The notes below the pieces were generated by a model. It made no database searches and was not told where the DNA came from. It saw only the letters and a list, made by a program, of their open reading frames with translations. DNA of 64,000 nucleotides. Source: Acidobacteriota bacterium. Lineage in GTDB: Bacteria; Acidobacteriota; Terriglobia; Terriglobales; SCQP01. The stretch lies in NCBI GenBank assembly GCA_027459505.1, contig DAIDIE010000013.1:62001-126000 (forward strand). The letters run 5' to 3'. Positions 9,226-15,092 of this stretch are shown here, one piece after another; positions within the stretch are counted from its first letter, which is position 1; each line of letters starts with the position of its first letter. The position numbers and the translations under genes were made by a program.

Positions 9226-10014
9226 ATGCAATCCGTTCAGCCTGTCAAAACCGGACCAGGAACGTTTTCCGCCGCGACTCGCACTGCCTTGGTCTCCTTA
9301 CTGGCCCAGTACCCTGAAAAGCAGTGCACCGCGTTGCTGCAGCGTCACGCGCTGCTGGAAGAGGGCGAGCCCCCTGCGGCTTTTTTCGCTCGTGCCCTGG
9401 AAGTCCGCGATCAACTTCTCACCCCTTTGCTCGACGAAGTGATCGGGAACGACCGCGAGTTACGCGCCGGCAGCCGCTACAGCCAGCAGCGCCTGGACGA
9501 GCGCTGGCAGGAGATAGTCCGCAGCTTGCGGCTGGACGGTTATGCGGTCCAGAATGGCCTCATGCTGACCCTGGTCCCTCCCGCCCCTGGCCGTACCAAT
9601 CGCGAAGACCTGCTCACGTCATTGTTGCGCGGCACCGCGTTCCCCGAGGGCGAGGAGGTGATCCACCTGCTGGCCGATGCCCGCCTCGACTTGCAATCCG
9701 CCAACGTCAACTACGCCGCCGCCCTCTCCTCCTGCCGCGCCGCCCTAGAGCTGATCGTGAAATCGCTTGCGGCACACCACCCTCAGGGCCACGGCAAGTC
9801 CGGCTTGAGCTTTGAGGAGGCGTTGCGCCACCTGGAGAAAAAGGAGTTCATCCCAGCCTCCTCCGCCCAGGCCATCGCCCACGTCCACGCGGCCTTTCTC
9901 AGCCCCAGTGTGGTTATTGGCGCGCGCGTCGGCGAACAGGAACGTGTATTGCTGGGCCGTGACATGGCCCTCTCCCTCTGCTACTACCTGGTGCTGCTGC
10001 ACAAAACCTATTAA
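9226..10014 (+). CDS. Uncharacterised helical protein with HEPN/Abi_C-like C-terminal region
   Basis: 262 residues from ATG 9226, preceded by AGGAGA; the frame is open further upstream but lacks a better site. No signal peptide or membrane segment. The C-terminal half (about 150-262) is a run of amphipathic helices. NYAAALSSCRAALELIVKSLA resembles the helix of HEPN or abortive-infection C-terminal domains that follows the pattern of a small residue, Cys/Ala, then ALE. I could not see a clear R-x4-6-H ribonuclease motif. Function unknown. The gene is monocistronic, with its own promoter. Confidence 0.7.
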   Translation: MQSVQPVKTGPGTFSAATRTALVSLLAQYPEKQCTALLQRHALLEEGEPPAAFFARALEVRDQLLTPLLDEVIGNDRELRAGSRYSQQRLDERWQEIVRSLRLDGYAVQNGLMLTLVPPAPGRTNREDLLTSLLRGTAFPEGEEVIHLLADARLDLQSANVNYAAALSSCRAALELIVKSLAAHHPQGHGKSGLSFEEALRHLEKKEFIPASSAQAIAHVHAAFLSPSVVIGARVGEQERVLLGRDMALSLCYYLVLLHKTY

Positions 10015-10049
10015 GGGCAAACCGTACCGCCCATCCGCGGTTCTCAATT

Positions 10050-10078
10050 TTGGGTAGGCCCTCTTTCGCTCTTATAAT
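10050..10078 (+). promoter_or_regulatory. Promoter of first KimA-like gene
   Basis: TTGGGT (10050-10055), a 17-nt spacer and consensus TATAAT (10073-10078). The leader to the ATG at 10190 would be about 105 nt. It contains a CGCCTTCTTCC / GGAGAAGGCG hairpin but no recognisable c-di-AMP aptamer. Confidence 0.6.
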
Positions 10079-10189
10079 GTGCGGGACCGTCGCGCCTTCT
10101 TCCAGACATGGGTTTCCGGAGAAGGCGGCCCGTGGCCGCTGATGCTGTGGACGTGAACAGCGAACGGCCCTTGCTTGCACCCTGCCATC

Positions 10190-12457
10190 ATGGACATCTC
10201 TCAAAAAACGGCTAACCGCGTCATTGTCGCCTCGACGGTGATGCTTTCATTCATTTCGTTTTGGCGCGCCGCTGCCATTGTGCTCGCTGACCTGGGCTCG
10301 TCCGCATTCTACGTTCCTGGTATTGCGGAAAACGCCGTGGGCAAGAGCGCGGCTTGGTTCATCCTCGCCGTCATGCTGTTCAGCTTCGCGATCCGCTCGC
10401 TCTACATCGAGTCGAGCACGATGTTTGTCCGTGGTGGCGTTTATCGGGTAGTCAAGGAAGCTCTTGGTTCCACATTGGCCAAGGTGGCCGTTTCCGCGCT
10501 GATGTTTGACTTCGTCCTGACCGGTCCCATCAGCGCCGTCTCCGCTGGACAGTACCTCGCCGGGCTGCTGCACGACGTGGCTGCCCACCTGGGACACAAC
10601 CTTCTGGTTTCAACTGCCGCCGTCAACCAGTTTTCAGTGCTTTTCGCCGTCATCATCACCGTCTATTTCTGGTGGAAGAACATCATGGGCATGCATGAGA
10701 GTTCGCAGAAGGCGCTGCGCATCATGCAGATCACCACCGTCATGGTCGTGATCCTCATCTTCTGGGTAGTCGTGACACTGTTGAAGCACCCCGCCCCGCT
10801 GCCTCCCTTGCCCACCCATCACAACATGGTGCTTCCCAAAGAGTCGGTCGGCTGGCTGTGGGGCACCCGCCTCACCAACATCACCGCGATTGCGCTCCTG
10901 ATCGCCTTCGGCCACTCCGTTCTCAGCATGAGCGGATGGGAAACGTTGGCCCAGGTCTATCGCGAGATCGGAAGCCCCAAGCTCCCCAACCTGAAAAAGG
11001 CCGGCACCGTGGTCTTCATCTACAGCCTGATCTTTACCGCCGGCGCCGCCTTTGCCGGCGAGATGATCATTCCCGACCACGTCCGCCGCCAACACTTGCT
11101 CGGCAATTTACTTGGCACCCTTACCAGCTACCTCGCCGGACCCAGCCTTTTGAAACTCTTGTTTCAGGGATTTGTCGTGCTGGTGGGCGTCATCATGCTG
11201 GCGGGCGCGGTCAATACCGCCATCATTGGCTCCAATGGCGTTTTGAACAGGGTCAGCGAAGACGGCGTCATGCCGGATTGGTTTCGCAAGCCGCAACGTA
11301 AGTTTGGTACCACCTACCGCATCGTGAACCTCATTGTCGGCCTGCAGCTGGCGATTATTCTGGCCAGCCGCGGCAACGTCTACACCCTGGGCGAGGCCTA
11401 TGCCTTTGGACTTATCTGGAGCTTCACCTTCCTTGCCGTTTCGGTCCTGACCCTGCGCTTTAAGCGCCCCGGCCCGCGAGAATGGAGGATCCCATTCAAT
11501 TTGCCCATCGGCAATTATGAAATCCCTCTCGGCCTGGGGTTGATCACATTGGTCCTGATGTCCGTCCTGGTAATCAACCTGTTTACCAAGGAAGTCGCCA
11601 CCATCTATGGAACGCTCTTCACCGCCGGCTTCTTCGCGCTCTTTTTGTTTTCCGAGCGCGCCCACAAGCGCCGCCGCAAGGACGGGCACGAGCTCGACCA
11701 GTTCCTGGCTCAAGGGCGCGTCGACATCAACCTCGATACCATGCAGGTCCGCCCCGGCAACGTCCTGGTGGCCGTCCGCGACTACAACCATCTGGGACAT
11801 CTGCGCCGCGTTCTGGAGCGCACCGATACCACCAAACAGGATGTCGTCGTGGTCACCATCCGGATGCTGCACAAGGGCGATTTCACCACTGACACCAACA
11901 ATGAAATGACCGACTATGAGCAGCAGCTCTTCACCAGTGTCGTCGCCACAGCGGAAAAGGCCGGCAAGACCGTCTCCCTGCTGATTGTGCCCGGTTCAAA
12001 CCCATTCGACGCCCTGGTGCAAACCGCCGCCCGCTTGCGCTCCGACACGATTGTCGCCGGACTGAGCCGCGTTCTTCCCGCCCGCGAACAGGGCAACTAC
12101 ACCGGCTTGGCCTGGGAAATGCTGCCAGAACCGCGCCCGCGCCTCCGCCTGGAAGTCATTGGCGACGAAGGCGTGGAAGAGGTGTTTTACCTCGGACCGC
12201 ATGCCCCCCGCCTGCGCGAAAAGGATATTGACTTACTACACGAGATTTGGCTCAACCTGGTCAGCGATCCTCGCTTCAGAGAACTGCACCACTATCACGT
12301 GGTCTCACTCGCGCTCAAGCGCCTCAAGCAGGATCTGGACTCGCCCGAAAGAGAGCAGGTTCTGAGCGGATTTCGCCTGCGGGCCATGCATGACCCAGCC
12401 GACGACGCGCTGCAGGTTCCGGAAAAAATCGGTGACCCCTCCCATGCGCCCAGTTGA
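10190..12457 (+). CDS. KimA-like potassium/APC-family transporter, copy 1
   Basis: 755 residues from the ATG at 10190; the context ATCATGGAC is shared with copy 2. About twelve membrane helices (residues 10-480) are followed by a soluble C-terminal domain of about 270 residues containing VRPGNVLVAVRDYNH, as in KimA proteins. Residues reported to coordinate K+ in B. subtilis KimA have counterparts at the same spacing: Asp34/Tyr41 (ADLGSSAFY) and Asp107, Thr111, Ser115 (DFVLTGPIS). This supports potassium uptake driven by the proton gradient rather than amino-acid transport. The match is by motif only. Closely related to the downstream copy, suggesting tandem duplication. Confidence 0.85.
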   Translation: MDISQKTANRVIVASTVMLSFISFWRAAAIVLADLGSSAFYVPGIAENAVGKSAAWFILAVMLFSFAIRSLYIESSTMFVRGGVYRVVKEALGSTLAKVAVSALMFDFVLTGPISAVSAGQYLAGLLHDVAAHLGHNLLVSTAAVNQFSVLFAVIITVYFWWKNIMGMHESSQKALRIMQITTVMVVILIFWVVVTLLKHPAPLPPLPTHHNMVLPKESVGWLWGTRLTNITAIALLIAFGHSVLSMSGWETLAQVYREIGSPKLPNLKKAGTVVFIYSLIFTAGAAFAGEMIIPDHVRRQHLLGNLLGTLTSYLAGPSLLKLLFQGFVVLVGVIMLAGAVNTAIIGSNGVLNRVSEDGVMPDWFRKPQRKFGTTYRIVNLIVGLQLAIILASRGNVYTLGEAYAFGLIWSFTFLAVSVLTLRFKRPGPREWRIPFNLPIGNYEIPLGLGLITLVLMSVLVINLFTKEVATIYGTLFTAGFFALFLFSERAHKRRRKDGHELDQFLAQGRVDINLDTMQVRPGNVLVAVRDYNHLGHLRRVLERTDTTKQDVVVVTIRMLHKGDFTTDTNNEMTDYEQQLFTSVVATAEKAGKTVSLLIVPGSNPFDALVQTAARLRSDTIVAGLSRVLPAREQGNYTGLAWEMLPEPRPRLRLEVIGDEGVEEVFYLGPHAPRLREKDIDLLHEIWLNLVSDPRFRELHHYHVVSLALKRLKQDLDSPEREQVLSGFRLRAMHDPADDALQVPEKIGDPSHAPS

Positions 12458-12651: not shown

Positions 12652-12657
12652 TATAAT
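12652..12657 (+). promoter_or_regulatory. -10 box for riboswitch transcript
   Basis: TATAAT, in an AT-rich patch (12645-12663) within GC-rich DNA. The predicted transcript start, about 12664, coincides with the 5' edge of the aptamer. The -35 element is weak. Confidence 0.6.
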
Positions 12658-12663
12658 TGTTGT

Positions 12664-12793
12664 CATCGCCGAGTTCCACACCACGTGGAAACGGGGGACC
12701 CAGCAGCCTCATGGCAGGGGCGAATCCTCGTACCGAGGAAGGGCACTTTCCGGCCCTAGCCCGTCAGCTAACCCCGTAGGCATTGGAAAGGAG
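12664..12793 (+). ncRNA. Cyclic di-AMP (ydaO/yuaA) riboswitch
   Basis: The conserved blocks of the ydaO class appear in order: ATCGCCGAGTTCC (12665-12677), ACGGGGGACCCA (12691-12702), GGGGCGAATCC (12717-12727), GAAGGGCACTTTCCGGCCC (12738-12756) and CCGTCAGCTAACCCCGTAGGC (from 12761), ending with GGAAAGGAG. In this class c-di-AMP binding turns off the downstream gene, commonly potassium transporters and cell-wall enzymes. The neighbour here is a KimA-like transporter, the classic target. A small tetraloop-type hairpin (TCCTCGTACCGAGGA) fills a variable stem. The SD-like GGAAAGGAG is the 3' end of the motif, about 28 nt before the ATG. Confidence 0.93.
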
Positions 12794-12821
12794 CCGGCCA
12801 GCACCATCCCTGGCCGCGATC

Positions 12822-15092
12822 ATGGATATTTCTCAAAAGACTACGAACCGCGTCATTGTCGCCTCGACAGTGATGCTCTCCTTCATCTCTTTCTGGCGAG
12901 CCGCCGCCATTGTCCTCGCTGATCTCGGCTCGTCCGCCTTCTACGTCCCCGGCATCGCGGAAAATGCCATAGGCAAGAGTGCCCCCTGGTTCATTCTCGC
13001 CGTCATGCTCTTCAGCTACGCCGTGCGCTCCCTCTATATCGAGTCGAGCACCATGTTCGTCCGCGGCGGCGTCTACCGCGTGGTCAAAGAGGGCTTGGGC
13101 TCCACCCTGGCCAAAGTTGCCGTCTCCGCGCTGATGTTTGACTTCGTCCTTACCGGCCCCATCAGCGCCGTCTCCGCCGGCCAGTACCTCGCTGGCCTCA
13201 TTCACGATGTGGGCGCCCGCTTCGGCCACAACCTGCTCGTCTCCCCCGCCGCCGTCAACGAGTTCTCCGTCGTCTTTGCCGTCGCCATCACCTTCTATTT
13301 CTGGTGGAAAAACATCATGGGCATGCATGAGAGCTCGCAGAAGGCGCTGCGCATCATGCAGATCACCACCGTGATGGTCGTCATGCTGATCGCCTGGGGC
13401 TTCATCACCCTGTTTAAAATCGGCTTCCACCTGCCGCCGGCCCCAACGCCCGCCAACATGACCGTCTCTCCCAAGGCCTTGGGATGGCTCTCCGGCACCG
13501 GCGTCATGCACATCGCCGCTCTCGCGCTGCTGATCGGCTTCGGACACTCCATCCTCGCCATGAGCGGTGAGGAGACCCTCGCCCAGGTCTACCGCGAGAT
13601 CAAAAGCCCTAAGGTCAAGAACCTGGAAAAGGCCGGCTTCGTCATCTTCGTCTACAGCCTGCTGTTTACCGTCCTTGCCGCCTTCTTCGGCGTGATGATC
13701 ATCCCCGATCCCGTCCGCAAAACCAAACTCCTCGGCAACCTGCTCGGCGAGTTAGCCATGCACCTGTCCGGCCCCTTCATGCTGCGCTTGTTGTTCCAGG
13801 GCTTTGTGGTGGTGGTCGGTGTGGTTATGCTGGCGGGCGCGGTCAACACCGCCATTATCGGCTCCAATGGCGTGCTCAACCGCGTCAGCGAAGATGGCGT
13901 CATGACCGCCTGGTTTCGCCGTCCCCACCGCCGCTTCGGCACCTCCTACCGCATCATCAATCTGATCTGCGTCCTGCAGACCGCCATCATTTTTCTCAGC
14001 CGTGGAAATGTCGATAACCTAGGCGAGGCCTACGCCTTCGGCCTGGTCTGGAGCTTCTCTTTCCTGGCTGTCGCCGTCCTCGTTCTCCGCTTCAAACACC
14101 CGGAAGGACGCGAGTTCAAAATTCCCTTCAACATCCGCATCGGCCGCACCGAAATCCCCATTGGCCTGGGCCTGATTGCCCTGGTCCTGGTCGCCACCGC
14201 GGTAATGAATCTGTTCACCAAACAGATCGCCACCATCTCGGGCCTTATCTTTACCGCCGGTTTCTTTATTCTGTTCGTCGTCTCCCAGCGCATCACCCGC
14301 GCTCGCGAAGCCAAACGCCAGGCGGGACTGGATCAGTTCCAGGTCGCCGCGCGTGCTGACATCAACTCCGAAGCCGTCGAAGTCCGCCCCGGCAACATCC
14401 TCCTGGCGGTTCGCGATTACAACCACCTCACCCACCTGGAACGCGTCCTCGCCCGTACCGACACCACCCGGCAGGATCTCGTGGTGGTCACCATCCGCAT
14501 GTTGCACAAAGGCGATTTCACCGCCGAAACCAACAGCGAAATGACCGACTACGAACAGCAGCTCTTTACGAAAGTGGTGGCCGCCGCCGAAAAGGCCGGC
14601 AAGACCGTCTCGCTGCTCATCGTTCCCGGCTCCAACGCTTTCGACGCGCTGGTACAAACCGCGGCGCGCCTGCGTTCCGACACTATCGTCGCGGGCGTAA
14701 GCCGCGCCATCCCCGTACGCGAGCAGGGCAACTACACCGGCCTGGCCTGGGAAATGCTGCCCGAGCCGCGCCCCCGCCTGCGTCTGGAAGTCATTGGCGA
14801 TCAGGGTGTCGAAGAGGTCTTCTACCTCGGACCTCATGCCCCCAGGCTGCGTGAAAAAGACATCGACCTGCTGCACGAAATCTGGCGCAGCCTGGTCAGC
14901 GAGCCGCGCTTCCGCGAGTTGCACCACTATCACGTGGTCTCACTTGCCCTAAAACGCCTCAAGCAGGATCTCGACTCGCCCCAGCGGGATGAGGTTCTCA
15001 GCGGCTTCCGCTTGCGCACCACCCATGAGCCAGAAGACGACCTGCTCGAGGTGCCCGAAAAAATCGGCGACACCTCGCACTCGCCCATCTAA
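12822..15092 (+). CDS. kimA: KimA-like potassium/APC-family transporter, copy 2, riboswitch-controlled
   Basis: 756 residues from the ATG at 12822. The in-frame TTG at 12783 lies inside the aptamer and is unlikely to be the start. Same architecture as copy 1: about twelve membrane helices plus a soluble C-terminal domain with VRPGNILLAVRDYNHL. The K+-site counterparts Asp34/Tyr41 and Asp107/Thr111/Ser115 are all kept. The first 200 residues and the last 250 are nearly the same as in copy 1; loops and central helices differ most. Expression is predicted to fall when c-di-AMP, and so intracellular K+, is high. The symbol follows the B. subtilis K+ importer and is by homology only. Confidence 0.87.
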   Translation: MDISQKTTNRVIVASTVMLSFISFWRAAAIVLADLGSSAFYVPGIAENAIGKSAPWFILAVMLFSYAVRSLYIESSTMFVRGGVYRVVKEGLGSTLAKVAVSALMFDFVLTGPISAVSAGQYLAGLIHDVGARFGHNLLVSPAAVNEFSVVFAVAITFYFWWKNIMGMHESSQKALRIMQITTVMVVMLIAWGFITLFKIGFHLPPAPTPANMTVSPKALGWLSGTGVMHIAALALLIGFGHSILAMSGEETLAQVYREIKSPKVKNLEKAGFVIFVYSLLFTVLAAFFGVMIIPDPVRKTKLLGNLLGELAMHLSGPFMLRLLFQGFVVVVGVVMLAGAVNTAIIGSNGVLNRVSEDGVMTAWFRRPHRRFGTSYRIINLICVLQTAIIFLSRGNVDNLGEAYAFGLVWSFSFLAVAVLVLRFKHPEGREFKIPFNIRIGRTEIPIGLGLIALVLVATAVMNLFTKQIATISGLIFTAGFFILFVVSQRITRAREAKRQAGLDQFQVAARADINSEAVEVRPGNILLAVRDYNHLTHLERVLARTDTTRQDLVVVTIRMLHKGDFTAETNSEMTDYEQQLFTKVVAAAEKAGKTVSLLIVPGSNAFDALVQTAARLRSDTIVAGVSRAIPVREQGNYTGLAWEMLPEPRPRLRLEVIGDQGVEEVFYLGPHAPRLREKDIDLLHEIWRSLVSEPRFRELHHYHVVSLALKRLKQDLDSPQRDEVLSGFRLRTTHEPEDDLLEVPEKIGDTSHSPI

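Follow-up and report, generated by a model that had tools for sequence, protein, structure and literature searches.

The aptamer of ydaO-class c-di-AMP riboswitches contains an already known pseudoknot that joins the P6 loop to the 3′ tail (PMC5393176). In the crystallised ydaO RNA the P6 loop carries CUCCUUCG and the 3′ tail carries CGAAGGAG (PMC5393176). A review counts ydaO among the riboswitches that occlude the ribosome binding site (RBS) (PMC10907184), and in Corynebacterium glutamicum reporters support a translational c-di-AMP riboswitch for which pairing of the Shine-Dalgarno (SD) sequence with the pseudoknot was proposed (PMC9960051). RNA structure can also correct an overlong SD-to-start distance: a hairpin shortens the SD-AUG spacing of T4 gene 38 from 22 to 5 nt and that of gene 25 from 27 to 11 nt (PMC3014915).

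Both the kind of riboswitch and the kind of target gene found in the window (the whole 64,000-nt stretch of DNA analysed here) are already known, and the apparent novelty lies in how the expression platform is built. It appears that one strand of the known aptamer pseudoknot is at the same time the SD, and that a hairpin makes up for the resulting overlong spacing. No report of an aptamer-borne SD combined with a bridging hairpin was found in the literature searched (weak evidence), and the platform is probably a new variant.

The riboswitch and its tandem transporter genes

The following features of the locus are referred to throughout.

10190-12457, + strand: copy 1, a KimA-like tandem paralogue of 755 aa without a riboswitch; 78% identical to copy 2
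12652-12657, + strand: -10-like element TATAAT just 5′ of the aptamer, read from the sequence
12657-12797, + strand: c-di-AMP (ydaO/yuaA) riboswitch aptamer, RF00379 (83.6 bits, E 5.4e-18)
12741-12756, + strand: P6 hairpin GGGC-ACUUUCCG-GCCC, from the Rfam structure line and a complementarity table
12785-12793, + strand: GGAAAGGAG, pseudoknot 3′ strand and strong SD, from complementarity, leader comparison and the known ydaO pseudoknot
12795-12816, + strand: putative bridging hairpin CGGCCAG-CACCAUCC-CUGGCCG, 7 bp, -12.5 kcal/mol; hairpins of other sequence lie at the same position in six relatives
12822-15092, + strand: copy 2, a KimA-like K+ importer of 756 aa predicted to be under riboswitch control, ATG start, from profile and K+-site residues and, less clearly, from fold

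The original prediction had placed the leader in the ydaO class, and the Rfam search bore this out: the RF00379 covariance model was matched over its full length (1-134 of 134) at 12657-12797 on the + strand with 83.6 bits, where the gathering score is 38 bits, with the conserved ydaO-class block GTCAGCTAACCCCGTAGGC present at about 12763-12781 as predicted. This is the sole RF00379 match in the 4.06-Mb genome, and its score ranks among the higher ones in the phylum. Judged from the sequence match, the c-di-AMP riboswitch is genuine and of an already known class.

The further suggestion, that c-di-AMP control is little described in such an organism, calls for moderation: the riboswitch is rare in this order alone, with RF00379 found in 5 of 397 genomes, and is not rare in the phylum, in which 68 of the 396 genomes sampled carried a match. 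Within the class, matches occurred in 35/399 genomes and stood mostly 5′ of KimA-like genes. The five matches in the order are the window's own and four from one other genus, in which 6/8 genomes carry the riboswitch. Some members of the phylum hold three to five c-di-AMP riboswitches per genome (G782, G740, G468, G746).

A transcript from the TATAAT element would begin at about 12664, at the aptamer. TAGAAT stands at the equivalent place in five leaders of the other genus, those with enough upstream sequence covered. Given these elements just before the aptamer, copy 2 is likely to have its own transcription start. Consensus scans found no -35 match near the TATAAT at 12652-12657, and no terminator for the copy 2 leader in the window.

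Copy 2 has AA_permease_2 as its only Pfam match, and a single-sequence phmmer search of the PDB with it returned no match; a profile was needed to reach KimA. With a profile of 23 relatives, exactly one PDB entry matched at E<=0.001, the Bacillus subtilis potassium transporter KimA (6s3k, E 4.6e-4). Foldseek searches with an AlphaFold model (mean pLDDT 74) placed KimA first (8b70/8b71, target TM 0.60-0.61), with cation-chloride cotransporters close behind. The K+ ligands of KimA are Asp36, Tyr43, Thr230 and Tyr377 (PMC10284832). In the HMMER profile alignment Thr230 corresponds to Ser248 and Tyr377 to Tyr404; Asp34 and Tyr41 are not covered by it but, given the 7-residue spacing between them within TM1, probably represent Asp36 and Tyr43. 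All four K+-coordinating positions are invariant in 23 homologues, with one Thr to Ser change relative to KimA. The KimA-like residues noticed earlier, Asp34/Tyr41 and Asp107/Thr111/Ser115 (KimA 36/43/117/121/125), are all invariant in the same set. We infer that copy 2 transports K+. Arg337 of KimA touches c-di-AMP and is not essential for inhibition; the position aligned to it in the profile alignment is not Arg in copy 2. Because this residue is not kept, direct inhibition of the copy 2 protein by c-di-AMP cannot be claimed, and we call the protein KimA-like rather than a c-di-AMP-binding KimA.

The original prediction also called for a diadenylate cyclase in the genome, and one is encoded: a 291-aa CdaA with CdaA_N and DAC domains (PF02457, 136 bits), whose gene is followed by a YbbR/CdaR-like gene. 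Neither a PgpH-type hydrolase nor a TrkH/KtrB-type channel was detected in this 96.85% complete MAG. Two DHH proteins are encoded, their open frames being 614 and 382 aa long, and the one in the 382-aa frame could be the phosphodiesterase. With no TrkH/KtrB-type channel detected, the two KimA-like importers may provide an important route of K+ entry.

The first of these two importers, overlooked in the original prediction, lies directly upstream of the riboswitch gene. Copy 1 has its own -10-like TATAAT at 10073-10078 and lacks a clear SD in front of the ATG; there is no riboswitch, even a degenerate one, before it (the Rfam search of 9800-10500 yielded nothing at E<=1), and it would escape control by the c-di-AMP riboswitch. 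Recent gene conversion between the copies was rejected, as there is no near-identical tract and codon identity at same-residue sites is 0.46-0.76 throughout (short last block left out).

KimA-like matches were found in 125 of 150 relatives and were nearly always single. In the other genus the riboswitch lies between two KimA-like genes in 5/6 riboswitch genomes, and for the sixth (L099/L103) the stretch covered does not display the upstream copy. A protein tree, rooted by midpoint, placed the two window copies within the family to which the window belongs. The unregulated copy of the other genus fell inside that genus's own family, and its riboswitch-linked copy grouped with a riboswitch-linked gene from another family of the class. 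From this difference in placement, the two tandem arrangements most likely arose separately.

Pseudoknot strand, Shine-Dalgarno sequence and hairpin

The P6 loop contains the anti-SD strand CUUUCC (12746-12751), and GGAAAG at 12785-12790 can pair with it (12751-12746) over 6 bp to form the pseudoknot. The 3′ strand of the pseudoknot runs on into GAG, which creates AAAGGAG (12787-12793), a strong SD. The pseudoknot occupies AAAG, the first 4 of the 7 SD bases, in the window, and 5 in the other genus. Covariation supports the pairing: the longest Watson-Crick helix that P6 loop and 3′ tail can form had a mean length of 5.03 among 63 leaders, and when tails were permuted among these leaders as a control, all 300 permutations fell below this value (mean 3.94, sd 0.11, max 4.27). 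MFE folding of the whole leader, which cannot display a pseudoknot, gave an ordinary energy (z -0.73). The pattern for the 16S anti-SD tail was not found in the MAG.

In all seven leaders of the order the pseudoknot strand includes a strong SD in the form AAAGGAG, AAGGGAG or AAAGGGG, which binds the anti-SD at a predicted -7.6 to -8.8 kcal/mol, and the start-adjacent sequence has no strong SD (-1.5 to -3.5 kcal/mol). Most leaders of the class have a weak GAGAG-type strand at the place of the strong SD.

An odd gap of about 28 nt before the start codon had been remarked on previously and is real: GGAAAGGAG lies at 12785-12793 and the ATG at 12822. The hairpin at 12795-12816 ends 5 nt 5′ of the ATG and would loop out 22 nt, reducing the SD-ATG spacing from 28 to about 6 nt. 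The order SD, hairpin, start codon is common to 7/7 leaders of the order, and the stem sequences largely differ; six of these seven hairpin-bridged leaders come from one genus, so that they represent only about two independent lineages. Folding of the hairpin would bring linear spacings of 28-34 nt down to 4-12 nt across the seven leaders, a folded spacing that also arises in 40-60% of shuffles, leaving hairpin stability as the only unusual property. The seven hairpins range from -7.7 to -13.7 kcal/mol, each with p 0.007-0.075 against dinucleotide shuffles (about 0.07 for leaders L098 and L099).

A search of the seven leaders for a closer start codon revealed no in-frame ATG, GTG or TTG 4-12 nt 3′ of the SD; in L097 and in L099 a GTG follows the SD after just 2 nt. 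Copies 1 and 2 begin alike, with MDISQKT.

The position of the SD was compared in 29 leaders, each with a strong SD somewhere; for leaders from elsewhere than the order, start codons were chosen manually with the SD as guide, which favours the observed pattern. In 19 class leaders the SD lies 3′ of the hairpin and adjoins the start (one of these, L044, has no KimA match downstream), and in 17/19 the pseudoknot strand is weak (-0.3 to -3.3 kcal/mol). Leaders with the SD after the hairpin also have the hairpin between pseudoknot strand and SD (L037, L041, L045, L048, L050, L062 and others), and the SD of L062 could pair with the hairpin's 5′ arm. Three leaders lack the hairpin (L043, L054, L068): here the SD coincides with the pseudoknot strand and the start is a few nt 3′ of it, which, as read from these leaders, is the simplest translational form. 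The related L046 and L058 combine an SD-like GGGAG within the pseudoknot strand with a second SD close to the start, and are possible intermediates. Terminator-like hairpins with T-runs lie 3′ of the c-di-AMP aptamers of L040, L051, L053, L055 and L061, suggesting that transcriptional platforms coexist within the class.

Proposed mechanism and alternatives

Taken together, the results lead us to favour, as the probable reading, a translational c-di-AMP riboswitch of the OFF type, acting on a hairpin-bridged RBS whose SD half is inside the aptamer and serving the second of two tandem KimA-like genes, with copy 1 uncontrolled. The aptamer, the complementarity and covariation of the pseudoknot, the hairpin, the missing terminator and the presence of a cyclase support it by sequence and comparison; ligand binding, the sign of control and use of the distant SD are what we infer. 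When potassium is plentiful and c-di-AMP made by CdaA is high, the aptamer would fold and the pseudoknot form, and CUUUCC/GGAAAG pairing would take up AAAG of the SD AAAGGAG and turn translation off. When c-di-AMP is low, the pseudoknot would open and the ribosome would bind AAAGGAG. At 28 nt from the ATG this SD would be too distant in the linear RNA, and the 12795-12816 hairpin would leave about 6 nt; a hairpin returning an aptamer-borne SD to the start codon is likely the best explanation of the gap.

The main competitor, which we regard as unlikely though credible, is an ordinary c-di-AMP riboswitch in which the distant SD is unused, initiation is S1-dependent or SD-less, steric hindrance from the pseudoknot or the P1 fold keeps the ribosome off, and the hairpin is a mere spacer or incidental. 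In this order a clear SD is often missing near the start of single-copy KimA genes, and SD use in the window is only moderate (23/45 genes reach -5 kcal/mol vs 27% of shuffles), so that SD-independent initiation is possible. Against it stand the strong SD in the pseudoknot strand of 7/7 order leaders, where most class leaders are weak, the lack in these same leaders of the start-adjacent SD that most class leaders carry, and a hairpin kept throughout the order leaders with changing sequence. We consider it improbable that the switch is transcriptional, with the post-aptamer hairpin as a terminator or part of a Rho-dependent switch as in B. subtilis kimA. B. subtilis ydaO does work by termination (PMC9960051), and T-runs follow the five class aptamers named above, but no U-run is found 3′ of the hairpin in 7/7 order leaders and the hairpin stops 5 nt short of the ATG. 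The absence of the riboswitch from nearly the whole order (5/397 genomes) would fit a degenerate, non-functional element remaining after gene duplication; the full-length 83.6-bit match, the intact pseudoknot, the retained promoter-like element and the cyclase argue against this, and we judge it very improbable.

Within the favoured translational OFF reading, a more specific model has in our estimate about an even chance of being correct. The aptamer would hold the SD half of the bridged RBS, the bridge would be constitutive and the ligand would gate only the aptamer half; this arrangement would have originated in two of the order's lineages, seemingly on separate occasions, as the SD moved from behind the hairpin to the pseudoknot strand, in both cases on the second tandem gene with the first unregulated. 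If the platform works as proposed, it would bring direct SD sequestration together with the phage-type split RBS, both of them textbook mechanisms, and would reveal relatives whose SD stands either 5′ or 3′ of the same hairpin. For annotators it would further be a warning that the absence of an SD beside the ATG may mislead. We note that a regulated and an unregulated potassium importer side by side, with no TrkH-type channel detected, offer a simple physiological test.

Comparison with known systems

The B. subtilis kimA leader (RF00379) resembles that of the window in its aptamer, pseudoknot and KimA-type target gene. It switches a terminator, whereas the window has no terminator and its pseudoknot strand is the SD. 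B. subtilis KimA (6S3K, 8B70, 8B71) is the sole PDB profile match and best fold match of copy 2, with Asp36, Tyr43 and Tyr377 kept and Thr230 replaced by Ser, but the proteins share about 16% identity and differ in length (607 vs 756 aa).

For the nlpC riboswitch of C. glutamicum reporters support translational control, the mode proposed for the window, and CTCC-GGAG pairing with the RBS was put forward (PMC9960051). Unlike the window its target is a cell-wall peptidase, and the excerpted text describes no bridging hairpin (PMC9960051).

The sequence hallmarks of a split RBS, a strong distant SD and an intervening hairpin that would restore the spacing (28 to 6 nt for the window's leader), are present in 7/7 leaders. 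In T4 genes 25 and 38 a hairpin cuts an overlong SD-AUG spacing (PMC3014915), as predicted for the window, and in the split RBS of Escherichia coli thrS an RNA structure lies between the two RBS parts (PMC3936740), as in the window. In neither the T4 genes nor thrS is the site gated by a riboswitch, whereas in the window the SD half is part of the aptamer.
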